The notes below the pieces were generated by a model that was not told the origin of the DNA, did not search any database, and saw only the letters and a program-made list of their open reading frames with translations. DNA of 50,652 bases, taken from positions 1-50,652 of the forward strand of contig JAFWJN010000018.1 of the NCBI GenBank assembly GCA_017514685.1, read 5' to 3'. This document shows, one piece after another, positions 9,050 to 47,147 of this stretch; the first letter of the stretch is position 1; each line of letters begins with the position of its first letter. The DNA comes from Clostridia bacterium (lineage in GTDB: Bacteria; Bacillota; Clostridia; Christensenellales; CAG-138). Position numbers and translations under genes: made by a program.

Positions 9050-9105
9050 AAATATAGAATTCACTGTTCAGAGATTCTATGGCGGAGGAAAGTGCTTTGC
9101 AACGC

Positions 9106-9134: not shown

Positions 9135-9152
9135 GAATTCGGAGGGATTAAT

Positions 9153-9413
9153 ATGGAAAACAACAACTTGGATGCCACCAGAAAGTACAGAATCTCAAAA
9201 GATGTGCGTACCCCTGAGGATGTTCTGATGACCGTCTACCAGGCGATGCGTGAAAAAGGATATGATCCGGTCAATCAGATCGTCGGATATCTTCTTTCCG
9301 GCGACCCGACTTACATCACGAGTCATAACAATGCGCGTTATCTGGTCTTAAGAATGGAGAGAGACGACCTGCTGGATGAGCTGGTCCGTTTCTATGTCAA
9401 ACATCACGAATGA
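9153..9413 (+). CDS. ireB: IreB family regulatory phosphoprotein (UPF0297)
   Basis: Small cytosolic protein of 86 residues, the family's usual size. The core DVRTPEDVLMTVYQAMREKG followed by YDPVNQIVGYLLSGDPTYIT is diagnostic. In Enterococcus faecalis IreB is phosphorylated by the PASTA kinase IreK and tunes cephalosporin tolerance; the Thr pair in the N-terminal part could serve the same use here. Start 9153 has GGAGGG 6 nt upstream. The stop overlaps the ruvX start (ATGA). The order ireB-ruvX-DUF1292 is the conserved Firmicutes order. Confidence 0.95.
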   Translation: MENNNLDATRKYRISKDVRTPEDVLMTVYQAMREKGYDPVNQIVGYLLSGDPTYITSHNNARYLVLRMERDDLLDELVRFYVKHHE

Positions 9414-31481: not shown

Positions 31482-31491
31482 GGCGCAAGGA

Positions 31492-31513
31492 CAGGGATTG
31501 TCCGTTTCGTCTA
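31492..31513. promoter_or_regulatory. Copy 3 of the shared motif upstream of the kdu operon
   Basis: CAG-N6-TCCGTTTCGTCTA matches the copies at 17988 and 30035 in the core TCCGTTTyGT. It sits 21 bp upstream of a candidate promoter. Confidence 0.4.
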
Positions 31514-31534
31514 TCTAACAAACGTTTTATGAGA

Positions 31535-31563
31535 TTCCAAGCAAAGCGCGTATTTTATATAAT
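31535..31563 (+). promoter_or_regulatory. Candidate promoter of the ATPase-kduI-eda-kdgK-kduD operon
   Basis: TTCCAA (31535-31540), 17-bp spacer, TATAAT (31558-31563). The -10 is perfect and the -35 is poor, which fits a promoter that needs an activator such as the AraC protein. Confidence 0.5.
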
Positions 31564-31622
31564 ATGTGTAAAGGCAAGGATCCGATCTTTCAAATAATGA
31601 AATCAGAAAAGGGAGTATTATC

Positions 31623-32699
31623 ATGGCACATTTGACGCTCAAAGACATCAACAAAATCTACCCGAACGGTTTTCATGCGGTGCATGATTTCAACCTGGAG
31701 ATTGAGAGGGGAGAATTCATCGTCTTCGTAGGACCGTCCGGCTGCGGGAAATCGACGACACTTCGAATGATCGCGGGTCTTGAAAACATCTCCAAAGGAG
31801 ATTTCCTGATTGAAGGAAAACGCGCGAACGAACTTGGCCCCAGAGAGCGCGGAGTGGCAATGGTATTCCAGAGCTATGCATTGTATCCCCAGATGTCGGT
31901 TTATGACAACCTTGCTTTCGGCCTGACCTTGCAGGGCGTGGATGAAGATGTGATTGATGAGAAAGTCCGTAAGACCGCGAAGATCCTCGGTCTGACAGAT
32001 TATCTCGACAGAATGCCGAGAGCTCTTTCCGGCGGTCAGCGTCAGCGTGTTGCTGTCGGACGGGCAATCATCCGCAAGGTCGAGATTTTCCTGATGGATG
32101 AACCGCTTTCCAACCTGGATGCCAAGCAGCGTGTTACAATGCGTTCCGAAATCACTCAGATCCATAGAGAGACCGGTGCGACCACGATCTATGTTACGCA
32201 CGATCAGACGGAAGCTATGACAATGGCGGACCGTATCGTTGTTATGAAAGACGGTTATGTTCAGCAGATCGGTACTCCCCGCGAACTGTACTTCGATCCG
32301 GTCAACGTGTTTGTTGCAGGCTTTATCGGCGAGCCCCCGATGAACTTCCTGAGGGGCATCGTTGAAAACGGCGCTCTGAAATTCGGAGAGGTTGAGTTTG
32401 ATCTGTCCAAGAAACTTCAGGAGCGTACAGCGGAATATGAAGGAAAAGAAATCATATTCGGATTCCGGCCTGAGGGGATCCAGCTTGGCGAAAAGGAAAA
32501 CGCATACACTGTTCCGTGCAGCGTGGAACTGACGGAAATGCTCGGAGACAATACCAACGTGTATGTTGATATTGCAGATAAAAAGGCAATTCTGAAAGTA
32601 GACCCGCATGACACCCCGGAAATTGATACGGAAATCACCTTTTCCATCCCATACACGGAAGTGTATCTCTTTGATGGGGAAACGGAAAAGAGAATTTGA
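31623..32699 (+). CDS. ABC transporter ATPase (MsmX/UgpC type), second copy
   Basis: 358 residues. Walker A GPSGCGKST (37-45), signature LSGGQ (135-139) and Walker B IFLMDE (155-160) sit at the same residue numbers as in the ATPase at 24175. The N-terminal 170 residues are very similar, the C-terminal regulatory domain less so. No permeases or binding protein are next to it; it heads the kdu operon. As with Bacillus MsmX, it may energise the oligogalacturonide importer or other importers. AAGGGAG lies before the ATG. Confidence 0.95.
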   Translation: MAHLTLKDINKIYPNGFHAVHDFNLEIERGEFIVFVGPSGCGKSTTLRMIAGLENISKGDFLIEGKRANELGPRERGVAMVFQSYALYPQMSVYDNLAFGLTLQGVDEDVIDEKVRKTAKILGLTDYLDRMPRALSGGQRQRVAVGRAIIRKVEIFLMDEPLSNLDAKQRVTMRSEITQIHRETGATTIYVTHDQTEAMTMADRIVVMKDGYVQQIGTPRELYFDPVNVFVAGFIGEPPMNFLRGIVENGALKFGEVEFDLSKKLQERTAEYEGKEIIFGFRPEGIQLGEKENAYTVPCSVELTEMLGDNTNVYVDIADKKAILKVDPHDTPEIDTEITFSIPYTEVYLFDGETEKRI

Positions 32700-32719
32700 A
32701 CTGACTAAAGGAGAAGAGT

Positions 32720-33562
32720 ATGGACGTTCGTTATTCGACAAACCCGAAAGATTTCAGCCGTTATACAACGGAAGAACTTCGGAAAGAGTTTCTGATCACG
32801 GATCTGTATGAAGCAGACACCGTAAAAGCAACATATTCCCATGTGGACCGGATGGTCGTAGTGGGCATCATGCCTGTTTCGGAGAAAGTTCCTCTCGAGA
32901 AGGGAATCGATGTATGGGCAAACTTCGGGACGGATTACTTCCTTGAGCGCAGGGAAGCAGGCGTATTCAATCTTGGCGGCAAAGGCAAGATCGAAGCAGA
33001 CGGAGAAACGTTCGAACTTGGATTTGAAGACTGTCTCTACATTACGAAAGGAACGAAAACCGTTGTTTTCTCCAGTGATGATCCGCAGAATCCTGCAAAG
33101 TTCTATCTGGTTTCAGCACCCGCTCACACAGCTTACAAGACAACATTCCTGTCCTTTGCAGATGCGAACAAGCGTCCGTGCGGATCGGTGGAGGAGTCCA
33201 ATAAGCGCGTGATCAATCAGTTCATTCATCCGAATGTGCTCCCGACCTGCCAGCTGTCCATGGGGCTTACACAGCTTGATCCCGGAAGCGTCTGGAATAC
33301 GATGCCCTGTCATACACATGAGCGCCGCATGGAAGTATATACATACTTCAACCTCCCGGAGAATAATATCGTCATGCATTTCATGGGGACTCCGAAAGAG
33401 ACGAGAAATGTCGTGATGCAGAACTTTGACGCCGTGATCTCGCCCTCCTGGTCGATCCACAGCGGCTGCGGAACATCGAACTACACATTTATCTGGGCAA
33501 TGGGCGGAGAGAACCAGGCGTTTGACGATATGGATAATCTCAAGCCGACCGATCTGAGATAA
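32720..33562 (+). CDS. kduI: 5-dehydro-4-deoxy-D-glucuronate isomerase
   Basis: Isomerises 5-keto-4-deoxyuronate to 2,5-diketo-3-deoxygluconate, step one after unsaturated uronate release. Cupin fold, 280 residues. The zinc ligands match E. coli KduI with an offset of two: His198, His200 and Glu205 in CHTHERRMEVYTYF, and His247 in SIHSGCGTSN. It is flanked by the other enzymes of the same branch. AAAGGAG lies before the ATG. Confidence 0.96.
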   Translation: MDVRYSTNPKDFSRYTTEELRKEFLITDLYEADTVKATYSHVDRMVVVGIMPVSEKVPLEKGIDVWANFGTDYFLERREAGVFNLGGKGKIEADGETFELGFEDCLYITKGTKTVVFSSDDPQNPAKFYLVSAPAHTAYKTTFLSFADANKRPCGSVEESNKRVINQFIHPNVLPTCQLSMGLTQLDPGSVWNTMPCHTHERRMEVYTYFNLPENNIVMHFMGTPKETRNVVMQNFDAVISPSWSIHSGCGTSNYTFIWAMGGENQAFDDMDNLKPTDLR

Positions 33563-33576
33563 GAAAGGAATCCGAT

Positions 33577-34212
33577 ATGGAAGTATTAGACAGAATGCGT
33601 GCATGCGGCGTTGTGCCGGTAGTTGTTCTTGAGAGCGCGGATGACGCGGTTGATACTGCAAAGGCAATGCTCAAGGGCGGAGTCGATGTCATGGAGATCA
33701 CATTCCGCACGGCAGCAGCGGCGGAGTCGATCAGCCGGGTAGCAAAGGAAGTTCCGGATATGCTGGTCGGTGCGGGAACCGTTGTTACGCTTGAGCAGTG
33801 CAAGAAAGCAGTCGAGTGCGGCGCAAAGTTCATTGTTTCCCCGGGCTATGATGAAGAAGTCGTATCCTGGTGCTGTGAGCATCAGATTCCGATTACGCCG
33901 GGCTGCGTTACCCCGACTGAGATCATGTATGCGTTAAAGCACAACATTAAGGTCATCAAGTTCTTCCCTGCGAATGTATATGGCGGTCTGGCCGCGCTGA
34001 AAGCCCTTGCAGGACCTTTTGGAGGGATCCGCTTTATACCGACTGGCGGCGTCGGACAGAGCAATCTGGACGAGTTCACGCGTTCGTCGGCAGTACATGC
34101 GGTCGGCGGAAGCTGGATCTGCCCCAAAGCGGATATCAGCGCACACAATTATGATAAAATCAGCGCACTCTGTGCAGCAGCACGTGAAACGATCGACAAT
34201 GCACGTCAATAA
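33577..34212 (+). CDS. eda: KDPG aldolase (2-dehydro-3-deoxy-6-phosphogluconate aldolase)
   Basis: Class I aldolase splitting KDPG to pyruvate and glyceraldehyde 3-phosphate. 211 residues of a TIM barrel. Glu40 and Arg44 lie in VMEITFRT, the phosphate loop in GAGTV (66-70), and the Schiff-base lysine is Lys128 in IKFFPA. It follows kduI by 14 bp and precedes kdgK by 9 bp, so the branch is co-expressed. Confidence 0.96.
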   Translation: MEVLDRMRACGVVPVVVLESADDAVDTAKAMLKGGVDVMEITFRTAAAAESISRVAKEVPDMLVGAGTVVTLEQCKKAVECGAKFIVSPGYDEEVVSWCCEHQIPITPGCVTPTEIMYALKHNIKVIKFFPANVYGGLAALKALAGPFGGIRFIPTGGVGQSNLDEFTRSSAVHAVGGSWICPKADISAHNYDKISALCAAARETIDNARQ

Positions 34213-34221
34213 GGAGGACAT

Positions 34222-35250
34222 ATGAAATTTCTGACTTTCGGAGAAATCATGCTGAGACTGAAGTCGCCGGGACAGGAGCGCTTTTTCCAGAGTCCGATGC
34301 TGGAAGCAACATTCGGCGGAGGAGAAGCAAACGTAGCTGTTTCATTGGCGAATTACGGGCAGGATGTTTCTTTCCTGACTGTTCTACCGAAAAATGCAAT
34401 TGCGGATGAGTGCGTAAAGGAACTGCGCAAATTCGGAGTTGATACAAGCCGGATCGTCCGAACGGATAATGGAAGGCTCGGTATTTACTATCTGGAGAGC
34501 GGAGCAAACCAGAGACCCTCCAAAGTGGTATATGACAGAGCATACTCAGCAATTGCGCTTGCAGGTCCCGGTTCCATTGACTGGGAAGCGGCGTTCAAAG
34601 ATGTCGACTGGTTCCATATTACCGGTATTACTCCGGCCATTTCCGAGCCGGCGATGGAACTTTCCCTGGAATCGGTAAAGGAAGCAAAGAAACGCGGAAT
34701 CACTGTTTCCTGCGACCTGAATTTCCGGAAGAATCTCTGGAAGTACGGAAAAAAAGCTTCCGAAGTAATGGGTGAAATGGCAAATTATATCGATGTTGCG
34801 ATTGCCAATGAAGAGGATGTCCAGAAGAGCCTTGGAATTACGACCGATGTCGTAGTTGAGTCCGGATCACTCGACAGAGCCAAGTACAAAGCTCTTGGCG
34901 ATAAAGTCCTTGCCAAATATCCGAACATGAAGATGATAGCAATCACTCTTCGTGAAAGCAGAAGCGCGGATAATAACGGTTGGGCGGCATGCCTGAATGA
35001 CAGAGAACAATTCTGTGAGTCCAGAAAATATGAGATCACGGATATCGTGGACAGAGTCGGAGGCGGCGACAGCTTCGCGGGCGGTCTGATCTACGGACTG
35101 AATCACTATGAGGATCATAAGCAGGCACTGGAGTTTGCCGTTGCTGCAAGCTGCCTGAAACACAGCATCATCGGAGACTTCAACCGTGTTGATGTCGATG
35201 AAGTGGAAAAGCTAATGGGCGGTGACGGAACCGGCCGTGTACAAAGATAA
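34222..35250 (+). CDS. kdgK: 2-dehydro-3-deoxygluconate kinase (PfkB family)
   Basis: Phosphorylates KDG to KDPG. 342 residues of the ribokinase/PfkB fold: GEIMLRL at the start, [10 protein letters not shown] (31-40), FRKNLW typical of KdgK and [12 protein letters not shown] (278-289) with the catalytic Asp283. AAGGAGG lies before the ATG. Placed between eda and kduD, so the function is well supported by context. Confidence 0.95.
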
Positions 35251-35267
35251 GCGAGGAGGAAGTACAT

Positions 35268-36071
35268 ATGGCATTTGATATGAAACAGTTTTCACTGGAA
35301 GGAAAAGTTGCTTGGATCACCGGAGCAAGCTACGGAATCGGATTTGCGATTGCAACGGCACTGGCTTCGGCAGGTGCGACGATCGTATTCAATGATCTGA
35401 CTCCGTCCCATCTGGAGAGCGGACTTGCTGCATACAAGGAACTGGGAATCGATGCCCATGGGTATCTCTGTGACGTAACCGACGAGGACGCGGTGCAGAA
35501 ACTCGTGAAGCAGATCGAAGAGGAAGTCGGAACCATCGACATTCTGGTAAACAACGCGGGCATCATCAAGAGAATTCCGATGGTGGAGATGAGTGCTGCG
35601 GATTTCCGCAAGGTAGTAGACGTCGACCTGAATGCACCTTTCATCTGCTCAAAGGCTGTTATTCCAGGAATGATCAAAAAAGGACATGGAAAGATCATTA
35701 ATATCTGCTCTATGATGAGCGAGCTGGGAAGAGAGACCGTTTCCGCATACGCAGCTGCAAAAGGCGGCCTGAAAATGCTGACCAGGAATATCTGCTCGGA
35801 ATACGGCGAATTCAATATCCAGTGCAACGGTATCGGACCGGGCTATATTGAGACACCGCAGACAGCACCGCTTAGAGAGCGCCAGCCTGACGGAAGCAGA
35901 CATCCGTTTGACCAGTTTATTATTGCAAAGACCCCTGCAGCACGCTGGGGAAGAACAGAGGACCTGATGGGACCGGCACTGTTCCTGGCGTCCGATGCAT
36001 CCAACTTCGTCAACGGACAGATTCTGTATGTTGACGGTGGTATCCTTGCCTATATCGGCAAACAGCCGTAA
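35268..36071 (+). CDS. kduD: 2-deoxy-D-gluconate 3-dehydrogenase KduD / gluconate 5-dehydrogenase-like SDR
   Basis: NAD(P)-dependent short-chain dehydrogenase, 267 residues. Nucleotide motif TGASYGIG, NNAG, and the catalytic Ser-Tyr-Lys in ICSMMS and YAAAKGG. In this operon it should reduce 2,5-diketo-3-deoxygluconate to KDG, the KduD step. By sequence alone it could be called a gluconate 5-dehydrogenase. AGGAGG lies before the ATG. The gene ends the operon at a strong terminator shared with the convergent GntR gene. Confidence 0.92.
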   Translation: MAFDMKQFSLEGKVAWITGASYGIGFAIATALASAGATIVFNDLTPSHLESGLAAYKELGIDAHGYLCDVTDEDAVQKLVKQIEEEVGTIDILVNNAGIIKRIPMVEMSAADFRKVVDVDLNAPFICSKAVIPGMIKKGHGKIINICSMMSELGRETVSAYAAAKGGLKMLTRNICSEYGEFNIQCNGIGPGYIETPQTAPLRERQPDGSRHPFDQFIIAKTPAARWGRTEDLMGPALFLASDASNFVNGQILYVDGGILAYIGKQP

Positions 36072-36101
36072 CCGAAAAGCAGACACAAGTCAAAAGAAAC
36101 A

Positions 36102-36130
36102 GGGCTCAATGTCAACTTGACATTGAGCCC
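36102..36130. terminator. Bidirectional terminator between kduD and the GntR gene
   Basis: GGGCTCAATGTCAA and TTGACATTGAGCCC are perfect inverse repeats separated by one base; the stem forms with a small loop. T-rich sequence follows on plus (TTACTTGTTT). Confidence 0.8.
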
Positions 36131-36151
36131 TTACTTGTTTGCTATAGCCGT

Positions 36152-36850
36152 TCAGATGGCGAAATAATCAGGATATTTGCTGATCAGTTCGGGAAGAGCG
36201 GCATAATATCCGGAGGTAAGATGCTGATGAAGGAACGAAGAAAGATCTTCACAGGCTTCGCGCATCATAACAAGATGGAAAATTCGCAGATGCTCTTCGT
36301 AGGAAGGCCATAAGTGCTCGGCACCAAGACGCACCTGAAGCCGGCGGACACGGTCCTGATGCGTAACCATGCGCATGACAGTTGCCCAGGTCCAGGGTTT
36401 GTTCACGGAAAAGTAGAGCTGCTTGTGAAACAGATTATCCAATTCCATGAACCGGTCCAGCTGACCTGCTTCGAGCGCGGCTTTCTGCTCTTCCAGGTTG
36501 TTGTGCAGATGGGTGATGGAAGCACCATCAGCGTTTTTAATCGCTTCTTTGAGAATCCCGGTTTCTATGTTGAAACGGACAAACATACCCTCTTCAACAG
36601 CGTCCAGATCAATTAGGGAAACAGAACTGGATTTCTGAGGATGAACATCGACGAGTTTGGCTTCTTTGAGTGACACGATTGCTTCACGGATCGGCGTCCG
36701 GCTGGTGCCGAACGCTTCCGAAAGCTCCGCGTCGACAAGCTGCATTCCGGGAGGGAATTCCAGCGTCATGATCGCCTCATACAGAACACGGTACGCATAT
36801 TCGCGACCGGTTTCTCCAGACGTTTTTTCAGGGAGTATTATATGATTCAT
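36152..36850 (-). CDS. GntR-family regulator (FadR/FCD subfamily)
   Basis: 232 residues. The N-terminal winged helix (GREYAYRVLYEAIMTLEFPP, then DAELSEAFGTSRTPIREAIV) is followed by an all-helical FCD effector domain. Regulators of this type (UxuR, ExuR, KdgR-like) control hexuronate genes. It is the last gene of uxaE-uxuB-gntR, 10 bp after uxuB, so it probably controls its own operon and the divergent uxaC operon. Candidate operators (TGATATA palindromes) lie in both promoters. Confidence 0.94.
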   Translation of the reverse strand: MNHIILPEKTSGETGREYAYRVLYEAIMTLEFPPGMQLVDAELSEAFGTSRTPIREAIVSLKEAKLVDVHPQKSSSVSLIDLDAVEEGMFVRFNIETGILKEAIKNADGASITHLHNNLEEQKAALEAGQLDRFMELDNLFHKQLYFSVNKPWTWATVMRMVTHQDRVRRLQVRLGAEHLWPSYEEHLRIFHLVMMREACEDLSSFLHQHLTSGYYAALPELISKYPDYFAI

Positions 36851-36860: not shown

Positions 36861-38486
36861 TTAAAGAGATGCCTTCGCAAGATGCGACTGAAGACTCTTA
36901 CGGACGGCACCGGGGCCTGTGATCAGTTCTGCAAAATCAGCTTCGATCTGCTCGGCAAGGCCGACCTGATAGAGATCGCTGCCCATGATCCGTTCATCGG
37001 AAAGGACCGGAGCCAGGAGAGCATGCACATCGGGCTTATCTCCGAGCTTCACGGCAGTGAAGCGGGGTGCGAGGTCCGGCATCAGAGGATCGTCGCTCGG
37101 CGTGAATGCTTCGCCATTGTCATCCACAGCCATCAGGTAACGGCACCAGGATGCGATCACAAAGGAAATCAGCTTCAGATCCTGAACATTGAGCGTATCG
37201 GAAGCGGCATACTTTTTGATAGTATTGCCGAAACGGACCGTGATCTTCTGAGAAGTATCGGTAGCGATGCGCTGCGGGGTATCGCCGAGGAACGGGTTGG
37301 GGAAGCGCTTCTGAACCACTTCGTCAATGAACTTCTTCGGGTCGATGACGCCGGGATCGACGACAACCGGAAGACCTTCTTTGTATCCGACGATTTCAAC
37401 GAGTTTCTTGAGGTCGGGATCCTGCATTTCTGCGGAAATCTTGGTGAACCCAAGCAGGCAGCCGAGAACCGCGAGGCAAGTGTGGAGCGGATTCAGACAG
37501 GTGCAGACTTTCATGGTCTCAACCATATCGACAACTTCACGCGCGGTGAAGATAACGCCCGCTTTTTCAATTGCAGGGTGGCCGTTCGGGAAAGCATCCT
37601 CTATAACAAGGTACTGAGTCTCTTCAGCGTTGACAAAAGGCGCAACATAAGAGCCATGAGAGGTCTTCTTATAATCCATGTCTTCAATTCCGTCGGCTTC
37701 GATCATTTCACGAACGGCGGCATCGGGACGGGGAGTGATCTTATCGATCATGCTCCAGGGGAAGGAGACAGAGGCACGGTCGCGGACATATGCAACAAAA
37801 CCGGCTTTACTGAGACCTTTTTCTTCCCAGACATCGGCAAAGGCAAGCACTGCAGCTTCAAGACGGGAACCGTTGTGGGAACAGTTGTCCATCGATACCA
37901 TAGCAATCGGATAGGCGCCGGCTTCATAACGCTCGTGAAGCAGAGCAGCGATCTTTCCGATGTAGCTGGTCACCGCATAAGGACCATTTGCCATATCCGC
38001 CGCAACCGCGGGGAACAGGTTGCCTGCGCCGTCCTTGATGTTGTATCCCTTTTCGGTGATGGTCAGAGATGCCATCTTCAGAGAAGGATTGCGGAAAATC
38101 TTCTTGGTTTCTTCCCAGTCTTCGCTTCCGGGGTTCATACCGAGCGTGCGGATGACGCTGCCGATGATCGTTTTCTGAATTCGGCCATCTGCGCAGAGAG
38201 TCGCGGATACGCAAAGATTGTCAAACGGACGGTACGCAGCGTCGAGTGTTTCGGAATCAAAACCTTCACAGGCGACGATTCCGGTGTCTGCATAACCCTT
38301 GTTCAGGATGTCTTGGTCCAAAGCAGCGATGAATGCGCGGAAGATGTTGCCTGCTCCGAAATGTACCCATTCGGGACGGGCGATCGTGTTGGAAAGGACT
38401 GCATCCCGGTCAAATTTCGGGAGGGCATAGCCTTTTTGCTCAAGCAGTTCACGATTGGCAAGGATCGATTCATTACAAAGTTTCAT
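36861..38486 (-). CDS. uxuB: D-mannonate oxidoreductase (fructuronate reductase), mannitol dehydrogenase family
   Basis: NADH-dependent reduction of fructuronate to mannonate. 541 residues, longer than E. coli UxuB (486). The nucleotide-binding start VHFGAGNIFRAF (41-52), DNCSHNG (200-206), the catalytic Lys249 in SMIDKITPR, and CLNPLHTCLA fit the family. AAGGAGA lies before the ATG. Gene order uxaE-uxuB agrees with tagaturonate going to fructuronate and then mannonate. UxaB (tagaturonate reductase) is the near relative; UxaE next door makes the UxuB role more likely. Confidence 0.92.
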   Translation of the reverse strand: MKLCNESILANRELLEQKGYALPKFDRDAVLSNTIARPEWVHFGAGNIFRAFIAALDQDILNKGYADTGIVACEGFDSETLDAAYRPFDNLCVSATLCADGRIQKTIIGSVIRTLGMNPGSEDWEETKKIFRNPSLKMASLTITEKGYNIKDGAGNLFPAVAADMANGPYAVTSYIGKIAALLHERYEAGAYPIAMVSMDNCSHNGSRLEAAVLAFADVWEEKGLSKAGFVAYVRDRASVSFPWSMIDKITPRPDAAVREMIEADGIEDMDYKKTSHGSYVAPFVNAEETQYLVIEDAFPNGHPAIEKAGVIFTAREVVDMVETMKVCTCLNPLHTCLAVLGCLLGFTKISAEMQDPDLKKLVEIVGYKEGLPVVVDPGVIDPKKFIDEVVQKRFPNPFLGDTPQRIATDTSQKITVRFGNTIKKYAASDTLNVQDLKLISFVIASWCRYLMAVDDNGEAFTPSDDPLMPDLAPRFTAVKLGDKPDVHALLAPVLSDERIMGSDLYQVGLAEQIEADFAELITGPGAVRKSLQSHLAKASL

Positions 38487-38521
38487 AGGTATCTCCTTCT
38501 GAAAATATTTCTGATCAAAAT

Positions 38522-39973
38522 TTATACATCCAGTTCTGACGTCAGGATGCGGACATGTTTTCCGAGATGACGGACCAGTGCTGCATAGTAGGCTTCCTCA
38601 TGCTCCGCCATTGTGCGGAAGAACTCCTCACGGAACCAATCCTGCTCGAGCAGCATGCCGTATGCGATGTGAACGGTCTGACGGGCGGGAGCCTGAGTCA
38701 TATACTCCGGCAGATAAGCATCATTCTGGAGGTCAATGTTTGGAATTTCGCTGGCCTTTGTTGAAACATGATAATATCTCTCGGCTTCCGGACGGTGATC
38801 AATCGCAAACTTGTGGGCTTTGCGGTAAAGACCCGGATTGACTTCAGCAACAACACGCATTGCTTCCAGCCAGCTTGTACCTGCCGTCTTGACATGGATA
38901 TGACCTTTTGTTACACGTGCAACGGTGGAGAAGACTGCAAACTTGTCCGAACCGGAATGGAGAGACAGTTTGTATCCGAAGAAATCAGCGATTTCCTGAT
39001 GGACAACGAAGTCGCGGGCAAAATCATTCAGATTGCCTGCATACTCGATTCCCTTTTCAAATGCTCCGGAGAAATGCGGTGCGCATGAAATGGGGGTAAT
39101 CCCCTCAGAATGGAGTTCGTTGCCGATGACAAAGTGCTCGGTCGGGGTGGTAATGGTGAGAGTCTCATCGATGGACAACTCAAAGTCAACATCTACCGTA
39201 CGGATTTCGTCAATATAGCGATAGCAGTCGATCGCGTGAGCGATGGCGTCCCAGAAAACGACAACTACGCGGCGAAGTTCATCCGCTTCCATGTGACCGA
39301 CGATCGGGAGTTCTTTATTGAGATATGTTTCTTCATAATGCTTCCGCAGCACTTCAGGAAGCGCTGCGTACATCTCTGCGATTTTCTCGGCAGGATAGGT
39401 TGCAGCTTTCTGATCAATATGCTCGGAGCAGTCAAGGGTGACCATGGTGCATCCGGACTCAAGAGCATATTTGATTTCTTCTTTTGTCTTCAGATGATCA
39501 CCGTCAGCGCCAAAGCCCTTTTTGTATCCTTCCTGGAACACGTTGAAAGACGCTGCGGAGATTACATCGGTAAAGGTGCGGTGGGTCAGATTTAATTCAC
39601 GAATCGACTGCTGAGCGAAAACAGGATAGATATCGTGGTTTCCGATTGCACGGATATGTCCGGGAGTCGCAAGACCGAGACGATCGCCGAAGCCCATCGT
39701 GAACTGATGACCTTTGTGACTCTTCGGCTTAGTGTAGGGGAACAGCGTCTGCATTGCTTTTGCGTTCTCGTTGGTGAGCGGGCAAAGAAGCAGCCCGTTC
39801 TCTTCGGTACCGGTAAACAAGTCGGATTTTTCACCGGCGACAGCTATCAGTTTGGTCAGATCCTTGCGGACAAGAGCGGCAACCGTGTTCTGGGCTTCAT
39901 CCACGGAGCGTTCGTAAACAAAAAGGTCGGTTCTGGCCAGCAAAGCGCGAAAAGAATCAATTGTCATATCCAA
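38522..39973 (-). CDS. uxaE: Tagaturonate epimerase
   Basis: Epimerises D-tagaturonate at C3 to D-fructuronate. 483 residues. The block GFGDRLGLATPGH (94-106), then GFGADGDHLKT and TLDCSEHI, is characteristic of the UxaE family first characterised in Thermotoga. It replaces the UxaB-UxaA branch of enterobacteria, so galacturonate and glucuronate merge at fructuronate. AAGGAGA lies before the ATG. It is the first gene of the minus-strand operon. Confidence 0.94.
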   Translation of the reverse strand: MDMTIDSFRALLARTDLFVYERSVDEAQNTVAALVRKDLTKLIAVAGEKSDLFTGTEENGLLLCPLTNENAKAMQTLFPYTKPKSHKGHQFTMGFGDRLGLATPGHIRAIGNHDIYPVFAQQSIRELNLTHRTFTDVISAASFNVFQEGYKKGFGADGDHLKTKEEIKYALESGCTMVTLDCSEHIDQKAATYPAEKIAEMYAALPEVLRKHYEETYLNKELPIVGHMEADELRRVVVVFWDAIAHAIDCYRYIDEIRTVDVDFELSIDETLTITTPTEHFVIGNELHSEGITPISCAPHFSGAFEKGIEYAGNLNDFARDFVVHQEIADFFGYKLSLHSGSDKFAVFSTVARVTKGHIHVKTAGTSWLEAMRVVAEVNPGLYRKAHKFAIDHRPEAERYYHVSTKASEIPNIDLQNDAYLPEYMTQAPARQTVHIAYGMLLEQDWFREEFFRTMAEHEEAYYAALVRHLGKHVRILTSELDV

Positions 39974-40009
39974 ATCTCCTTTTGTAATGATTATGAAAAG
40001 TTACTCAAC

Positions 40010-40029
40010 TGATATATTACAGTATATCA
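40010..40029. promoter_or_regulatory. Candidate GntR operator in the uxaE promoter
   Basis: Inverted repeat TGATATA-TTACAG-TATATCA. It overlaps the -10 of the uxaE promoter (40021-40026), an ideal place for repression. Confidence 0.6.
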
Positions 40030-40048
40030 CGGTTTATCGAATTGTCAA
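40021..40048 (-). promoter_or_regulatory. uxaE operon promoter
   Basis: On the minus strand TTGACA (40043-40048), 16-bp spacer, TATACT (40021-40026). The -35 is perfect consensus. Confidence 0.85.
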
Positions 40049-40140
40049 ACTCTTTTATTTAAATAATTAGGAAAAAATGGTGATATTTTTATATATAATA
40101 AACAAAAATCCGTTTTTTTTCAGAAGTTTTCAATTTAGCC

Positions 40141-40169
40141 TTGCAAAACTGATATATCAGTGATATACT
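40141..40169 (+). promoter_or_regulatory. uxaC operon promoter
   Basis: TTGCAA (40141-40146), 17-bp spacer, TATACT (40164-40169). The palindrome at 40148-40161 fills the spacer. Between the two divergent promoters (40049-40140) the sequence is AT-rich; TCCGTTTTTT at 40109 weakly resembles the shared motif. Confidence 0.82.
40148..40161. promoter_or_regulatory. Candidate GntR operator in the uxaC promoter
   Basis: ACTGATATATCAGT, a perfect 14-bp palindrome in the promoter spacer. It shares AACTGATATAT with the operator near uxaE, so one regulator may bind both. Confidence 0.6.
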
Positions 40170-40241
40170 ACAGTCGTATGAAATGGGATAAGACCTGTTT
40201 CGAATCAAAATTTGAAGAAATAAAGGAGAATCACAGAGGAC

Positions 40242-41687
40242 ATGAAGCCGTTTATGGACAAGGATTTTCTGCTCGACACCGATACCGCGAAGGTTCTTTA
40301 TCACGAGCATGCTGCGAAGATGCCGATCATCGACTATCACTGCCACATCAATCCGATGGAGATCGCAAAAGACAAACAGTATGGCACGATTACCGAAATC
40401 TGGCTGGGTGGAAAAACTCAGGACGGCGGCTATTTCGGCGATCACTACAAGTGGAGACTGATGCGCTCGAATGGCGTTCAGGAAGATCTGATCACCGGCG
40501 ACGCCGATCCTGAAGAGAAATTCGTTGCCTGGGCGGGAACTCTGCCAAAGGCAATCGGCAACCCTCTGTATCACTGGACGCATCTGGAACTTCAGCGTTA
40601 TTTCGGCGTTACGGAACCGCTGAGCGAGAAGAACGCAAGAGAAGTATACCGTCACTGCAATGAGATCCTTCAGAAATCCGATATGTCGGTGCGCGGAATT
40701 ATCGAGAAAAGCAATGTAAAACTGATCTGCACGACCGATGATCCGATTGACTCTCTGGAAGCGCATGAGCTGATCAAAGCGGATCCGACCTGCAAGGTCG
40801 CAGTCCTTCCGGCATTCCGTCCGGACAAAGCGATGCGGATCGACAAGCCGGAATTTTCTGCCTATATGGATCAGCTTGAGAAAGTATCCGGAATCACGAT
40901 TGACAGCATGGAAGCGCTCCGCAAAGCCATGTATAGCCGGATTGAGTATTTTGAGGCGCATGGATGCCGGGTTTCCGATCACGGACTGGATCGTGTCCTT
41001 TGCGAAATTGCGACAGAAGAAGAGCTCGATGAAATTCTCCGTAAGGGAAGAGCAAAAGAGCCGGTCAGCGTAAAAGAATACGAAGCGTTCCATACAGCAT
41101 TGCTGCTTGCCTGCGCCAAGGCATACGCTGAGAAGCACTGGGTCATGCAGTTGCATTTCGGATGCATCCGCAATAATTCAAGCAAATATTACAAGCTGTT
41201 CGGTGCCGATACCGGATATGATGCGATGAACGACGGGACACAGGCTCAGAATCTGGCCGGTTTCCTGGATCTTCTGGAGAAGGAAGACGCGCTTCCGCGT
41301 ACGATCCTGTACTCCCTGAATCCGGCTGATAACGGAGTGATCGCAACGGTGATGGGCGCGTTCCAGACCAATGCGGAAGTCCCCGGAAAGATCCAGATCG
41401 GCAGTGCCTGGTGGTTCAATGATCATAAGTACGGCATGCAGCAGCAGATGACCGACCTGATGGACCTCGGAGTCATCGGCAATTTCGTCGGCATGCTGAC
41501 GGACAGCAGAAGTTATCTGTCCTATACACGTCATGAGTACTTCCGCCGCATTCTCTGCAGCATGTTCGGACATCTGGTCGAGAACGGCGAGTATCCGAAC
41601 GACATGGAGACTCTCGGCAAGATCGTGGAAGACATCAGCTACAACAACACACTGCGGTATTTCCGCTTCGATGAGATTATCAAATAA
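40242..41687 (+). CDS. uxaC: Glucuronate/galacturonate isomerase
   Basis: Isomerises D-galacturonate to D-tagaturonate and D-glucuronate to D-fructuronate. 481 residues of the amidohydrolase-like fold. The early metal motif IDYHCHINP (30-38, His33 and His35) and MQLHFGCIRNN later are typical of UxaC. GGAG lies upstream of the ATG. First gene of uxaC-pfkB-gnd-larA, divergent from uxaE. Confidence 0.95.
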   Translation: MKPFMDKDFLLDTDTAKVLYHEHAAKMPIIDYHCHINPMEIAKDKQYGTITEIWLGGKTQDGGYFGDHYKWRLMRSNGVQEDLITGDADPEEKFVAWAGTLPKAIGNPLYHWTHLELQRYFGVTEPLSEKNAREVYRHCNEILQKSDMSVRGIIEKSNVKLICTTDDPIDSLEAHELIKADPTCKVAVLPAFRPDKAMRIDKPEFSAYMDQLEKVSGITIDSMEALRKAMYSRIEYFEAHGCRVSDHGLDRVLCEIATEEELDEILRKGRAKEPVSVKEYEAFHTALLLACAKAYAEKHWVMQLHFGCIRNNSSKYYKLFGADTGYDAMNDGTQAQNLAGFLDLLEKEDALPRTILYSLNPADNGVIATVMGAFQTNAEVPGKIQIGSAWWFNDHKYGMQQQMTDLMDLGVIGNFVGMLTDSRSYLSYTRHEYFRRILCSMFGHLVENGEYPNDMETLGKIVEDISYNNTLRYFRFDEIIK

Positions 41688-41703
41688 ATTTTTGGAGGAT
41701 TAC

Positions 41704-42762
41704 ATGAAAAAGTATGCATTAGTCGTTCCGACCAGCATGGGCGTCCGCATTACGCCCGCAAACCGTCAGCCTGTCCACATCAGCCATGAGTTTTACATGC
41801 AGGCAACAAGCGCAGAGACCAACGTTGCTACCGTATCCGCTTCTCTCGGACTTCCGGTCAAAGTCCTGACCACATTCGTGGAAGGTTCTCCGATCGCGGC
41901 TTTCATCAAAGCGGATCTGAGAGCCCGCAACATGGAATATGAGGGAAAAGATGTTCCGCAGGGAGATCCCTGGGGCTACCGTCATCAGTTCAATATTGCG
42001 GATTCCGGCTTCGGACTTCGCGGACCGCGCGTCACAAACGACAGAGCGGGCGAAGTTGGACGTACTCTGAACGTGAAGGATTTTGATCTTGACCGTATTT
42101 TCGGCCAGGAGGGTGTGGAAATCCTGCATCTTTCCGGACTGATCGCAGCACTGTCTGCAGAAACCAGCGAATTCTGCCTGGAACTTGCCCGTGCAGCGAA
42201 GAAATACGGAACGAAAATCTCCTTTGACCTGAACTATCGCGCTTCTTTCTGGAAAGGCCGTGAAGAAGAACTCTCCAAAGCTTTCCGTGAGATCGCTTCC
42301 GTATCGGATATTCTGGTCGGTAATGAAGAAGACTTCCAGCTGTCCCTTGGAATCAAAGGACCGGAAGCGGGCGGAAAGGATCTGGCATCCAAGATCGACA
42401 GCTTCAAGGAAATGATTCTGGAAGTGAAAAAACAGTATCCCAACGTTCAGGTGTTTGCGACAACTCTCCGCCAGGTTCTGAATGCGAATGAACATCTCTG
42501 GGGCGCACTGCTCCTGAAAGATGGAGAATGGTTCGTAGCAGAACCGCGTCCGATTCAGGTGTACGACCGTATCGGCGGTGGCGATGGATTCGTAGGGGGA
42601 CTTCTGTACGGAATGCTGAAAGGCTGGAGCGGTGAGGATTGCCTCCATTTCGGATGGGCGACCGGCGCATTGGCAGCCACGATGGTAAACGATTATGCGC
42701 AGCCCTGTGATGAAGAGCAGGTATGGGCCGTATGGAGCGGCAATGCGCGTGTAAAACGCTGA
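41704..42762 (+). CDS. PfkB-family sugar/sugar-acid kinase, substrate uncertain
   Basis: 352 residues. Ribokinase fold with VGNEEDFQLSLG (about 205-216) and the catalytic loop GGGDGFVGG (291-299, Asp294), where a Gly replaces the usual Ser after Asp. The N-terminal part (TSMGVRITPANRQPVHISHE) and GFGLRGPRVTNDRAGEVGRT differ much from the KdgK at 34222. The usual annotation would be KDG kinase. As KdgK is present elsewhere in the locus and gnd follows here, gluconate phosphorylation is an alternative. I chose the ATG at 41704 (GGAGG 7 nt upstream); the longer frame from 41533 runs into uxaC. Confidence 0.88.
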   Translation: MKKYALVVPTSMGVRITPANRQPVHISHEFYMQATSAETNVATVSASLGLPVKVLTTFVEGSPIAAFIKADLRARNMEYEGKDVPQGDPWGYRHQFNIADSGFGLRGPRVTNDRAGEVGRTLNVKDFDLDRIFGQEGVEILHLSGLIAALSAETSEFCLELARAAKKYGTKISFDLNYRASFWKGREEELSKAFREIASVSDILVGNEEDFQLSLGIKGPEAGGKDLASKIDSFKEMILEVKKQYPNVQVFATTLRQVLNANEHLWGALLLKDGEWFVAEPRPIQVYDRIGGGDGFVGGLLYGMLKGWSGEDCLHFGWATGALAATMVNDYAQPCDEEQVWAVWSGNARVKR

Positions 42763-42817
42763 AAAAGAACAAATTTAATTACAATTCAAATATATTAATA
42801 TTTTAAGGAGAAGAAAA

Positions 42818-44269
42818 ATGGCAGCAGATATCGGATTGATCGGACTTGCAGTTATGGGTGAAAACCTGGTTATGAACATGGAATCCAAAGGCTTTACCGT
42901 TGCGGTATACAACCGTACCACATCCAAGGTTACAAGCTTTGTGGAAGGAAGAGCAAAGGGCAAGAACATTATCGGAACATACTCTCTGGAAGAACTGGCC
43001 GCGAACCTGAAAAAGCCGCGCAGAGTCATGATGATGGTCAAAGCAGGTAAGCCTGTTGACGATTTCATCGAGGCGCTTCTGAAAGTACTGGAACCGGGCG
43101 ACATCATCATCGATGGCGGAAACTCCCACTTCCCGGATACCATTCGCCGTACCCAGTATGTTGAGAGCAAAGGCCTTCTGTACATCGGCACCGGCGTTTC
43201 CGGCGGCGAAGAGGGCGCACTGAACGGACCGAGCCTGATGCCCGGCGGTTCTCCTGCGGCATGGCCGTATGTCAAGGAAATCTTCCAGTCCATCTGCGCA
43301 CATGTGGAAGACGGTTCTCCCTGCTGTGAATGGGTTGGCGAAAATGGCGCAGGCCATTTCGTAAAGATGGTTCATAACGGAATCGAATACGGCGATATGC
43401 AGCTGATCTGCGAAGCGTATCAGCTGATGCGTGACGGACTCGGCATGACCGCGGATGAAATGCACGAAGTATTCGCAGAATGGAACAAGACGGAACTTGA
43501 CAGCTACCTGATCGAGATCACCCGTGACATCCTTGCGTACAAGGATACCGACGGAGAACCGATCGTCGGCAAGATCCTGGATACCGCAGGACAGAAGGGC
43601 ACCGGCAAATGGACCGGTATCGCCGCACTGGATGAAGGCGTACCGCTGACACTGATCGGCGAAGCCGTATTTGCACGCTGCCTCTCCGCAATGAAAGACG
43701 AGCGTGTGGAAGCATCCAAAGTATTCCCGAAAGAGAATGTCAAGATCAGCGATGTCGATAAGAAAGCGTTCATCGAAGATATCCGCAAAGCGCTGTATGC
43801 CTCCAAGATCATCTCTTACGCACAGGGCTATACTCTGATGCGTGCCGCTGCAAAGAACTACGGATGGAACCTGAACTACGGCGGAATCGCGCTCATGTGG
43901 CGCGGCGGCTGCATCATCCGTTCCGTATTCCTCGGCAAGATCAAGGAAGCATACGACAAGAATCCTCAGCTTGAGAACCTTCTGCTCGATCCTTATTTCG
44001 GAAATACCATCAAGGGACTGGTTCCCGCATGGCGCAATGTCGTTTCCGAAGCGGTCCGTCACGGAATCCCGATGCCTGCTTTCGCATCCGCTCTTACGTA
44101 CTTTGACGGATATACGACAGAGAAGCTTCCGGCGAACCTGCTGCAGGCACAGCGCGACTATTTCGGCGCACATACCTATGAGCGCCTCGACAGCCCGCGC
44201 GGAGAATTCTTCCACACCAACTGGACAGGTCATGGCGGCGACACATCCGCATCGACCTATACGGCATAA
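42818..44269 (+). CDS. gnd: 6-phosphogluconate dehydrogenase (decarboxylating)
   Basis: Oxidises 6-phosphogluconate to ribulose 5-phosphate and CO2. 483 residues. GLAVMGENL (9-17) and YNRTTSK for NADP, GVSGGEEGALNGPSLMPGG (126-144), and the active-site set Lys183, His186, Asn187 and Glu190 in HFVKMVHNGIEYGD at the family numbering. AAGGAG lies before the ATG. An AT-rich 55-bp gap separates it from the kinase. Unusual neighbours for gnd: it lies in a uronate operon with a LarA homologue after 12 bp. Confidence 0.97.
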   Translation: MAADIGLIGLAVMGENLVMNMESKGFTVAVYNRTTSKVTSFVEGRAKGKNIIGTYSLEELAANLKKPRRVMMMVKAGKPVDDFIEALLKVLEPGDIIIDGGNSHFPDTIRRTQYVESKGLLYIGTGVSGGEEGALNGPSLMPGGSPAAWPYVKEIFQSICAHVEDGSPCCEWVGENGAGHFVKMVHNGIEYGDMQLICEAYQLMRDGLGMTADEMHEVFAEWNKTELDSYLIEITRDILAYKDTDGEPIVGKILDTAGQKGTGKWTGIAALDEGVPLTLIGEAVFARCLSAMKDERVEASKVFPKENVKISDVDKKAFIEDIRKALYASKIISYAQGYTLMRAAAKNYGWNLNYGGIALMWRGGCIIRSVFLGKIKEAYDKNPQLENLLLDPYFGNTIKGLVPAWRNVVSEAVRHGIPMPAFASALTYFDGYTTEKLPANLLQAQRDYFGAHTYERLDSPRGEFFHTNWTGHGGDTSASTYTA

Positions 44270-44281
44270 GAGGGAAGAGTA

Positions 44282-45559
44282 ATGGAACTGTTCTATCGTG
44301 CAAAAAACGATGAAGGCCTGAGCCGCGATGAAATCCGCGCGGCTCTTTGCCGTTCTTTAGAAGGAAGACAACCGAAGAAGGTTCTGCTTCTTCCGCCGGA
44401 TTATACACGGTATCATTCCAACGCGGGATTTATCGCTAACACCTATTATCATCTTCTGACGGACATGGGAGCATGGGTGGATGTCATGCCGGCTCTCGGA
44501 TCCCACAGGGCGGTAACAAAGGAAGAAGCAGCGGACATGTTCGGAGATATTCCTTTTGAACGTTTTCTGGAGCATAACTGGCGCACCGGCGTTGTACGTC
44601 TCGGTGAAGTCTCCGGTGAGTATCTGTCGGAGATCACTGACGGCCTCTGGAAAGATCCGGTCAGCGTGGAAGTGAACCGGAAGGTGATGGATGAGAGCTA
44701 TGACCTGATCCTTTCCATCGGACAGGTGGTTCCGCATGAAGTCATCGGAATGGCTAACCATGCGAAGAACCTGTTTGTAGGTGTCGGCGGAAGCGATATG
44801 ATCAACAAGTCCCATATGGTCGGTGCTGTCTACGGAATGGAACGGATGATGGGACGTGACTTTACTCCTGTCCGTAAGCTGTTCGACTATGCTCTGAAGG
44901 AATACCTTGGAAACAGACCGATCGTATTCGCCCTGACCGTGACGACGGCTCCGGGAGGAAAGATCCATACGCATGGACTGTTTATCGGTGATACCCGGAA
45001 AGTCCTGGAAGAAGCGGTCGCGCTTGCGCAGGAGAAGAACATTGACTTCGTGGATCATGGAATCAAGAAGTGCGTCGTCTATCTGGATCCGAAGGAATTC
45101 CAGTCTACCTGGCTTGGAAACAAAGCTGTATACCGGACGAGAATGGCTGTTGCAGACGATGGGGATCTGATCATCCTTGCTCCCGGCATTACACACTTCG
45201 GCGAAGATGCCCAGATCGATGTCCTTATCCGTAAATACGGATACTGCGGAAGACTGAAAGTATTGGAACTGTTCCGGGACAATGAAGATCTGAAGGAAAA
45301 CATGGGCGCTGCGGCGCATCTGATCCATGGTTCATCCGACGGCCGGTTCCGCATTACATACGCCGTTAAACCGCATATGCCCAGGGAAGAAATTGAAAAG
45401 GTTCATTTTCAATGGGCAGACTATGATGAGATGGTGAAACGGTATGATCCGGAAAAACTGCAGTACGGTTACAACACCCTTCCGGACGGGGAAGAGATCT
45501 TCTTCATCCCGAATCCCGCCCTGGGTCTTTGGATCAACCGTGAAAAGTTCTCTGAATAA
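44282..45559 (+). CDS. larA: LarA-family nickel-pincer hydroxyacid racemase/epimerase
   Basis: Member of the lactate racemase LarA superfamily, 425 residues. Residues needed for the nickel-pincer nucleotide and catalysis seem present: Asp40 and Arg43 (DYTR), His75 (GSHRAVTKEE), His152 (VVPHEVIG), Lys162 and His178. The spacing His152-Lys162-His178 (10 and 16) equals His174-Lys184-His200 of L. plantarum LarA as I recall it. Superfamily members include malate and lactate racemases and a D-gluconate 2-epimerase. Between gnd and uronate genes, gluconate/mannonate epimerisation is a good hypothesis. The cofactor genes larB, larC and larE are not in the window. Confidence 0.9.
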   Translation: MELFYRAKNDEGLSRDEIRAALCRSLEGRQPKKVLLLPPDYTRYHSNAGFIANTYYHLLTDMGAWVDVMPALGSHRAVTKEEAADMFGDIPFERFLEHNWRTGVVRLGEVSGEYLSEITDGLWKDPVSVEVNRKVMDESYDLILSIGQVVPHEVIGMANHAKNLFVGVGGSDMINKSHMVGAVYGMERMMGRDFTPVRKLFDYALKEYLGNRPIVFALTVTTAPGGKIHTHGLFIGDTRKVLEEAVALAQEKNIDFVDHGIKKCVVYLDPKEFQSTWLGNKAVYRTRMAVADDGDLIILAPGITHFGEDAQIDVLIRKYGYCGRLKVLELFRDNEDLKENMGAAAHLIHGSSDGRFRITYAVKPHMPREEIEKVHFQWADYDEMVKRYDPEKLQYGYNTLPDGEEIFFIPNPALGLWINREKFSE

Positions 45560-45585: not shown

Positions 45586-45620
45586 AAATGCACAGGAGAA
45601 AAACCCTGTGCATTTCTGCT
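45586..45620 (+). terminator. Terminator of the uxaC-pfkB-gnd-larA operon
   Basis: AAATGCACAGG pairs with CCTGTGCATTT around an 8-nt loop, then CTGCTTTAT. T content is moderate. Confidence 0.7.
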
Positions 45621-45671: not shown

Positions 45672-47147
45672 TTACAGATTCTTCAGAAGGCCGGTTCCTT
45701 CGTTGAACTCGTTGATAAGTTCATCAATCTCGTCCATCTGGTTGTGAATGTCGGTCCAGTAGTGCGGATCATACCACTGTGCATTCAGCTCGCCGACCGT
45801 CTTGCCCTGCTGTTCCACCCAGGTGTAATACTTGAGGTTATGAACACGCTTACGGGTTTCATATGTCAGCTCTTCCATGCTGTCGGTGCGGACACCATGC
45901 AGATGTTCTGCGTAGTCTGCAGCGGCTTTGACAGCTGTGTATTCGCCATCCGCTTCTTCGAGCTCGCGGATACGGCTCTGATACATGACGGAGGAGTCGG
46001 TGCCGACAGTTGCGAGAATGTCGTTCTCGGTCAGCTCGTAGTACTTGGCCATCTTGATGCAGCAGAGCAAGTTTGCAATGCCGGAAATACCAAGCAGCGG
46101 GAGCTTCTCAATGAAGTCAGCGGGAACGCCGACCACGTCGCGGAGATACTTCTGACCTTCGGGATCGTTGAACAGTCTGAGCAGCTTCTGGCTGTCTTCA
46201 TCGTCGATGGCAATAACCATATCCGTGTTCTTGACATTGTGGATCCACGGTACGTGTTTGTCGCCGATGCCTTCGATTCTGTGCCCGCCGAAACCGTTGT
46301 TCAGCAGGGTCGGACACTGGAGCGCTTCGCCGACGGCGAGCTTGCTGCCCGGATACTGCTCTTTCAGATAATCGCCTGCGCTCATGGTGCCAGCCGAACC
46401 GGAGGTGAACGCAGCGCCGAAGAAATGACCGTTCTCGCCCTTGATTTTCTCAATGACTTCGCCGATGGCATGACCGGTTACCTGATAATGCCAGAGGGGG
46501 TTGCCCATTTCTTCAAACTGGTTGAAGATCATAACGTCGGGACGCTGTCTTAAACGGTGTGTTTCATCGAAAATCTCTTTTACGTTGGATTCGCAGCCGG
46601 GAGTAGCAATGATTTCACCTGCAACCGTCTTCAGCCATTCAAAACGCTCTGCACTCATCTCTTCCGGAAGGATTGCGATGGAATTGCAGGAAAGGAGCGC
46701 GCTGTTGTAAGCACCGCCGCGGCAGTAGTTGCCGGTTGAAGGCCATACAGCCTTATGGTAGGTCGGATCAAATTGTCCGGTGACCAGACGCGGTACGAGG
46801 CATCCGAAGGATGCGCCGACTTTGTGACATCCGGTCGGGAACCATTTGCCGACTAGGATGATAATACGGGCTTTTACACCGGAGAGTTCTTTCGGTACTT
46901 CAATGTAGTTGACCTCACCATATTTGCCGTCTCCGCCCTTTTCAACCGGATTGTTTTTCCAGGTAATGCGGAACAGGTTCAGAGGATTGACATCCCAGAG
47001 ACCGACAGCAGGAAGCTTGTTCTGAATTGCTTCCGGAATCATCTCAGGATGCTGCATCTGCTTGAAAGTCGGGATAATGATGTTTCTTTCTCTTGCGCGG
47101 TCAATTGCACGTTTGAGAACTTCTTTGTTCATCGTTAAATCTATCAT
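45672..47147 (-). CDS. PLP-dependent enzyme of the tryptophan-synthase-beta fold (PALP), function unknown
   Basis: 491 residues, cytosolic. PLP Lys109 is in GCHKVGASFG; STGN (137-140) and TSGSAGT (248-254) would bind the substrate carboxylate and the cofactor phosphate. Members of this fold act on serine, threonine, cysteine or related compounds by beta-replacement or elimination. The protein is longer than cysteine synthases (about 310) with an added C-terminal part of some 120 residues. Start 47147 has AAGGGAG upstream. Single-gene unit with own promoter and terminator. A clear substrate cannot be given. Confidence 0.85.
   Translation of the reverse strand: MIDLTMNKEVLKRAIDRARERNIIIPTFKQMQHPEMIPEAIQNKLPAVGLWDVNPLNLFRITWKNNPVEKGGDGKYGEVNYIEVPKELSGVKARIIILVGKWFPTGCHKVGASFGCLVPRLVTGQFDPTYHKAVWPSTGNYCRGGAYNSALLSCNSIAILPEEMSAERFEWLKTVAGEIIATPGCESNVKEIFDETHRLRQRPDVMIFNQFEEMGNPLWHYQVTGHAIGEVIEKIKGENGHFFGAAFTSGSAGTMSAGDYLKEQYPGSKLAVGEALQCPTLLNNGFGGHRIEGIGDKHVPWIHNVKNTDMVIAIDDEDSQKLLRLFNDPEGQKYLRDVVGVPADFIEKLPLLGISGIANLLCCIKMAKYYELTENDILATVGTDSSVMYQSRIRELEEADGEYTAVKAAADYAEHLHGVRTDSMEELTYETRKRVHNLKYYTWVEQQGKTVGELNAQWYDPHYWTDIHNQMDEIDELINEFNEGTGLLKNL

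Follow-up and report, generated by a model that had tools for sequence, protein, structure and literature searches.

Background

In the canonical isomerase pathway of uronate breakdown (UxaC-UxaE/UxuB-UxuA-KdgK-Eda) D-mannonate is the substrate of mannonate dehydratase, UxuA, and two further described routes lead from galacturonate through mannonate to 6-phosphogluconate. Rodionova (2012) is credited with the route of Thermotoga maritima, in which mannonate is converted to gluconate by GntE and then to 6-phosphogluconate by GntK, thus entering the pentose phosphate pathway (PMC6978723, PMC3750489, PMC7583248); epimerisation between mannonate and gluconate by GntE2 was demonstrated in 2020 (PMC7583248). 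For Lactobacillus suebicus a kinase-first variant was demonstrated, redox-neutral as far as ribulose 5-phosphate (PMC6978723). In the present study we analyse a locus in the window, that is, the whole stretch of 50,652 nucleotides from a Clostridia bacterium (contig JAFWJN010000018.1, assembly GCA_017514685.1), where two divergent operons with a LarA homologue and a PfkB-family kinase would encode a route of this kind.

The UxaR galacturonate locus of T. maritima (gnd, uxaE, uxaD, gntE, gntK; PMC3750489) shares with our locus UxaE, the formation of mannonate, a C2 epimerase dependent on the nickel-pincer nucleotide (NPN) cofactor, GntE2, a kinase, Gnd and a GntR-family regulator. Its epimerase belongs to LarA group 20, whereas that of the window belongs to group 18. 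The gluconate kinase of T. maritima we take to be a member of the FGGY family, in contrast to the PfkB protein found here. In our search controls T. maritima had uxuA (PMC3750489), as well as LarC and LarE above cut-off, whereas in the window's genome UxuA was not matched and, of these two cofactor proteins, LarC alone was above cut-off. The hybrid isomerase/phosphoketolase route of L. suebicus likewise runs from galacturonate through mannonate to 6-phosphogluconate and bypasses UxuA, but there the kinase precedes the epimerase, neither step was assigned to a gene, and the ending is a phosphoketolase (PMC6978723). With the canonical pathway our locus has the upper steps in common; it differs from it in the missing UxuA match and in that KdgK and Eda sit in a separate operon. 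A first-pass annotation of the window had known of no described pathway of this type, which was mistaken in view of the 2012 proposal for T. maritima and the later proof of GntE2 activity (PMC7583248). The pathway idea itself is thus not new; what is new is the variant combining group 18 LarA with a PfkB kinase, whose pocket is unlike that of the 2-keto-3-deoxygluconate (KDG) kinase, and the spread of this variant.

Results and discussion

The proposed route

According to our reconstruction, UxaC would convert D-galacturonate to tagaturonate, or D-glucuronate to fructuronate; tagaturonate would be epimerised by UxaE to fructuronate, and this reduced by UxuB to D-mannonate. The LarA homologue, a predicted C2 epimerase, would then turn D-mannonate into D-gluconate, which the PfkB kinase would phosphorylate to 6-phosphogluconate, the substrate from which Gnd would form ribulose 5-phosphate, CO2 and NADPH, thereby repaying the reductant consumed by UxuB. 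Such a route would substitute for mannonate dehydratase and make the locus a self-contained unit for the breakdown of D-galacturonate (and D-glucuronate). We consider it probable that galacturonate is degraded in this way, with the epimerase acting before the kinase. Gene content, protein families, the conserved neighbourhood, the promoter palindromes, the association of group 18 LarA with UxaE and the frequent lack of a UxuA match were observed directly, while the substrates of the reductase, the LarA homologue and the kinase, together with the order of the last two, are what we infer. For LarA group 18 the outcome is a sharp prediction, a mannonate/gluconate epimerase, and for the PfkB clade a candidate substrate. 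The route would bring acids of pectin into the pentose phosphate pathway, redox-neutral to ribulose 5-phosphate (PMC6978723), in Clostridia, Spirochaetes and other bacteria.

The six enzyme genes had been placed by the first-pass annotation in one divergent unit, and all were confirmed at the same positions, each above its Pfam cut-off. The locus consists of two divergent operons, UxaE-UxuB-GntR on the minus strand and UxaC-PfkB-Gnd-LarA on the plus strand. The former carries UxaE, tagaturonate epimerase (38522..39973; PF16257, 555 bits), and a UxuB-like fructuronate reductase of the mannitol dehydrogenase family (36861..38486; PF01232/PF08125 above cut-off). Against the fructuronate reductase model NF011611 the latter protein reaches 129 bits, far under the 603-bit cut-off; judging from the gene context, it probably acts as UxuB and would be the producer of D-mannonate. 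The latter operon encodes uronate isomerase UxaC (40242..41687; PF02614 673 bits; NF002794 623 bits, cut-off 387), the PfkB-family kinase, predicted to be a gluconate or mannonate 6-kinase (~41704..42762, with the start chosen from its ribosome-binding site; PF00294, 85 bits), Gnd, the NADP-dependent decarboxylating 6-phosphogluconate dehydrogenase (42818..44269; TIGR00873 773.8 bits, cut-off 426.7), and the LarA homologue, predicted to epimerise D-mannonate and D-gluconate, or their 6-phosphates, at C2 (44282..45559).

The predicted epimerase and its neighbourhood

The LarA homologue is a member of LarA group 18 (hereafter LarA18), with 623.6 bits against NF052594 (NPN_18_hexonate, 'putative hexonate epimerase'; cut-off 500). 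Its residues D40, R43, H75, H152, K162 and H178 correspond to the NPN-binding and catalytic D72, R75, H108, H174, K184 and H200 of LarA, and this D-R-H-H-K-H set is invariant in 123/123 LarA18 loci. A loop EV/S and a Trp are reported as common to LarA groups 18-20 (PMC7583248); the window's protein carries H152-E153-V154 and W277, Trp at that column being present also in some other LarA rows. In the tree, which took 14 of 40 aligned LarA18 rows (those of the window and of 39 out of 44 class loci fetched, the other five having been dropped for extensions or truncation), LarA18 joins T. maritima GntE with support 100/100, GntE lying on a long branch that was flagged by the tree program. The T. 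maritima matches score under the group-18 cut-off, and the fold of the window's protein is nearest to GntE. A lactate or malate racemase was rejected, as a 100/100 branch lies between and the scores reach 19 of 460 bits for NF033504 and 47 of 500 bits for NF052593. The assignment to the gluconate-epimerase side of the LarA superfamily suggested in the first-pass annotation is supported, as are the logic of the route, the missing UxuA match and the conservation of the gene set. The substrate class of group 18 is hypothesised in the literature; here the company of genes points to mannonate/gluconate.

To survey this company, we took 123 loci and the genes lying no more than 8 kb from LarA18 in each; 43 of the loci come from genomes of the class and 80 from the genome_contigs collection. 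The latter are the best 80 of at least 586 confirmed relatives (591 pattern-matched stretches listed) and lean to close relatives; by record titles they belong to Clostridia and other Bacillota, Acholeplasmataceae, Spirochaetes, Verrucomicrobia, Kiritimatiellae and Victivallales. The truncated locus L075 was left out, and broken or split genes, such as PfkB of L038 in two frames, were scored as present. Gnd was found in 90 loci, a short-chain dehydrogenase/reductase (SDR) in 58, PfkB in 52, UxaC in 27, UxaE in 18, UxuB in 11 and an FGGY kinase in five. The grouping is far beyond chance, because LarA18 has these genes around it in many further genomes. The SDR, of which one member was scanned, matches the NCBIfam model 'D-mannonate oxidoreductase' (442 bits, cut-off 281), so that a mannonate-forming reductase, SDR or UxuB, is near LarA18 in 69/123 loci; the two are mutually exclusive, with the SDR in 0/11 UxuB loci. 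PfkB and FGGY occur together in a single locus (L153), FGGY being present in four others that have no PfkB. Four Spirochaete loci (L151, L159, L160, L161) have all six genes in a single row, uxaE-uxuB-pfkB-gnd-larA-uxaC.

In some loci without PfkB (L045-L048, L073, L167, L174, L180) a gene resembling pyrophosphate (PPi)-dependent phosphofructokinase lies near gnd and LarA18, accompanied in all five of the class loci by a gene of the haloacid dehalogenase (HAD) family. The phosphofructokinase-like gene perhaps serves the pentose phosphate pathway.

The PfkB kinase

The kinase matches PF00294 only, and neither the FGGY nor the P-loop GntK fold family. We aligned the PfkB proteins of 42 loci, out of the 52 with PfkB, and that of the window with seven KdgK sequences, and found 39 positions that differ between the two sides while being conserved at >=90% and >=80%, respectively. 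In the PfkB clade TSAE stands in place of the KdgK motif GGxE, and in 42/43 PfkB proteins Asn replaces two tyrosines of KdgK, namely the first one in IYYLE and the one in VVYDRA. Both tyrosines presumably contact KDG, as in the Thermus enzyme. An ordinary KDG kinase was rejected on these pocket positions and on the KDG-kinase models, all of which remain under cut-off, as they do for the window's own KdgK-like protein. The simplest reading of the sequences would be a gluconate or mannonate 6-kinase standing in for the FGGY gluconokinase.

It was also considered that PfkB could be a second KDG kinase and Gnd a part of general pentose-phosphate metabolism, the operon being a loose uronate cluster. 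The solved structures close to PfkB do include the KDG kinase 2afb (E 4.6e-30), and among the NCBIfam models it matches best those of an aldolase/sugar-kinase fusion and a KDG/KDGal kinase. In view of the altered pocket, of a distinct KdgK-like gene present in the window (34222-35250), and of the joint recurrence of Gnd and PfkB beside LarA18, we hold this explanation to be very improbable.

Association with UxaE and UxuA

Among 291 genomes of the class, an even draw with the window's genome included, LarA18 was above cut-off in 43. It was found in 21/24 genomes with UxaE as opposed to 22/267 without it, and in 16/17 of those where UxaE is present and UxuA unmatched. Two genomes (G002, G128) in which LarA18 is fragmentary or scores close to the cut-off were kept out of both LarA classes in these counts. 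UxuA is unmatched in 16/21 genomes holding both UxaE and LarA18, which speaks against the idea that LarA18 acts on a different hexonate, be it altronate or one derived from other uronates, while mannonate passes to an undetected dehydratase. In favour of that idea may be counted the label of group 18, which says just 'putative hexonate epimerase', the possible preference of group 19 for an isomer of mannonate (PMC7583248), and the incompleteness of the window's genome (82.6%), in which a dehydratase could be missed. With a mannonate-forming reductase, a kinase, Gnd and often UxaC or UxaE as the neighbours of LarA18, however, another hexonate appears to us an improbable substrate.

A number of observations weigh against the route as proposed. 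The search for UxuA (PF03786) gave 0 matches in the whole assembly (2.37 Mb, 61 contigs), which is 82.58% complete, and did not cover ManD, altronate dehydratase or Edd; the absence of UxuA, noticed in the first-pass annotation for the window, thus extends beyond it, and is likely, though not certain, for the genome. UxuA is matched also in 10/43 LarA18 genomes (one fragment, one weak match), so the two are not exclusive, and one genome with UxaE (G109) has neither UxuA nor LarA18. Whether the gene set recurs and whether it anticorrelates with uxuA had been raised as questions in the first-pass annotation; recurrence was seen in several phyla, but the avoidance between LarA18 and UxuA, taken alone, is weak (Fisher p 0.028, with no correction for kinship in any of these tests). 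Within 8 kb both PfkB and FGGY are missing in 28/43 class loci, some of whose contigs end sooner, and we saw no group-18 enzyme assayed in the literature consulted. In the window's genome LarE and LarB gave weak matches under cut-off (30 of 150 and 48 of 175 bits) at 82.6% completeness, and none of LarB, LarC and LarE was detected in 33/43 LarA18 genomes. Finally, extracts of L. suebicus had mannonate kinase and 6-phosphomannonate 2-epimerase activities, and without ATP formed no gluconate from mannonate (PMC6978723).

This last result favours an order in which D-mannonate is first phosphorylated by PfkB and the resulting 6-phosphomannonate is then converted by LarA18 to 6-phosphogluconate, and the lack of KdgK pocket residues in the PfkB clade leaves room for mannonate as the substrate of the kinase. 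On the other hand, GntE1 and GntE2, the closest LarA relatives to have been characterised, use unphosphorylated mannonate (PMC7583248), and an FGGY gluconokinase-like gene accompanies LarA18 in the five loci mentioned above (the one scanned reaches 245 bits in the gluconokinase model, cut-off 649). We regard the kinase-first order as unlikely, and the first interpretation of the locus, with epimerisation preceding phosphorylation, as largely plausible in its mechanism and partly supported.

The cofactor

The undetected cofactor genes raise the question of how a nickel-pincer enzyme is run without the known genes of its synthesis. The window's genome contains LarC (C26:6245-7480, 463 bits). LarE was above cut-off in 107/291 class genomes and in 6/43 LarA18 genomes, LarC was matched in 121/291 and 10/43, respectively, and LarB, searched in the 43 LarA18 genomes, was found in eight. 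The thresholds were E<=1e-10 for LarC, E<=1e-20 for LarE and 175 bits for LarB, at which more divergent homologues are possible. LarC is present in 105/107 LarE genomes, and since the two track each other, the searches work. Incompleteness as the sole cause was rejected, as 17 of the 33 genomes lacking all three matches are >=95% complete, two of these 17 being single contigs (G042, G193). Among the genomes from which 44 of the 80 genome_contigs loci derive, LarC was absent in 23 and present in 21; those without it include Peloplasma aerotolerans (G311) and all five Spirochaete genomes searched (G315, G320, G324-G326). LarC is likewise unmatched in 23/48 class genomes whose LarA matches all belong to other groups, so the phenomenon is not limited to group 18.

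The D-R-H-H-K-H residues are kept in 33/33 genomes without LarB, LarC and LarE and in 23/23 genome_contigs genomes without LarC. That the lysine bearing NPN, the ligand of nickel and the arginine that binds phosphate are all retained speaks for NPN, or a compound like it, being still in use. Salvage, an unrecognised synthesis route or a similar cofactor could explain why the synthesis genes go undetected. In the first-pass annotation the bypass was called possibly nickel-dependent and the absence of larBCE was named as a sign to the contrary; this sign was seen in part, and the nickel dependence is half supported. The invariant cofactor-binding residues agree with the former and argue against a simple loss of cofactor; the state of the synthesis genes, with LarC present here, LarB and LarE under cut-off, and all three so often undetected elsewhere, agrees with it less well.

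We tentatively propose that NPN is traded or salvaged: in many anaerobes unable to build it, hosts of LarA18 and of other LarA proteins may acquire the cofactor or its metal-free precursor from neighbours, similarly to B12 sharing. In the open literature searched, in the portions available, we found no report of NPN salvage. In the window's genome (L081, C26 5695-14065) the start of LarC overlaps a gene for an energy-coupling factor (ECF) S-component, followed by a CsoR/RcnR-type metal-sensing repressor, a methyltransferase and a Nik/Opp-like ATP-binding cassette (ABC) transporter, which makes it a candidate uptake-and-metallation operon; the ECF component could import a nickel-free ligand, then metallated by LarC. 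An ECF S-component homologue adjoins LarC also in G215. Altogether such homologues are near LarC in 3/12 LarE-less LarC loci (LarC being broken in one of them and the strands opposite in another) and in 0/8 LarE-bearing loci where LarC was located (nine fetched), and a search of the 44 class LarA18 loci yielded none; the ECF-LarC link is thin. No sulfur transferase was found among eight LarC-neighbour proteins scanned with Pfam (seven from other LarE-less genomes, one from the window's).

Several LarC loci have further peculiarities. In L092 (G227, ~6970-9333) LarC with in-frame stops is near an intact ECF S-component homologue. In L083 (G006), L085 (G033) and L086 (G014) LarC occurs with LarB while LarE is not above cut-off, the 'LarB' of G014 being an AIRC-family gene beside LarC; this suggests that sulfur comes from a different donor or that LarE was lost. 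In L087 (G208, 1486-4346), where LarE is also not above cut-off, LarC is flanked by a DUF362 gene and a gene of the carboxymuconolactone decarboxylase family; DUF362 has been used as an outgroup of LarA (PMC11770544).

Regulation and adjacent features

The 268-bp gap between the operons contains two back-to-back sigma-70-like sites, each overlapping a palindrome with the half-site TGATATA. For uxaE this is TTGACA-16-TATACT (40048-40021, minus strand), whose -10 element is overlapped by the palindrome TGATATATTACAGTATATCA (40010..40029), and for uxaC TTGCAA-17-TATACT (40141-40169, plus strand), whose spacer holds the perfect palindrome ACTGATATATCAGT (40148..40161). With up to three mismatches the former has three matches in the window, two of which are both strands of the same site (chance mean 0.08), and the latter is the sole mismatch-free match in the window. 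Neither promoter-like sites (six found, mean 8.5) nor terminator-like hairpins (10 found, mean 10.1) are commoner in the region than in shuffled sequences, and therefore the case for the promoters rests on position and palindromes. Both operons probably form one regulon, likely controlled by the GntR/FCD-family protein encoded by the final gene of the uxaE operon (36152..36850, minus strand; PF00392 and PF07729 above cut-off), a role we infer. The upstream region of the GH4/kdu operon and the uxaE-uxaC gap have no common 16-base stretch with at least 14 matches.

Two terminator-like hairpins, both from a consensus scan only, lie 3' of gntR (36101..36131, seen on both strands, 14-pair stem) and 3' of larA (45586..45615, plus strand, 11-pair stem). 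Further downstream, a protein of 491 amino acids (45672-47147) resembles pyridoxal phosphate (PLP)-dependent PALP enzymes, at 32.7 bits, below the 35-bit Pfam cut-off. On the other side, the separate operon at 30084-36071 contains genes for a glycoside hydrolase family 4 (GH4) glycosidase, an ABC ATPase, KduI, Eda, KdgK and a KduD-like protein, for unsaturated uronates.

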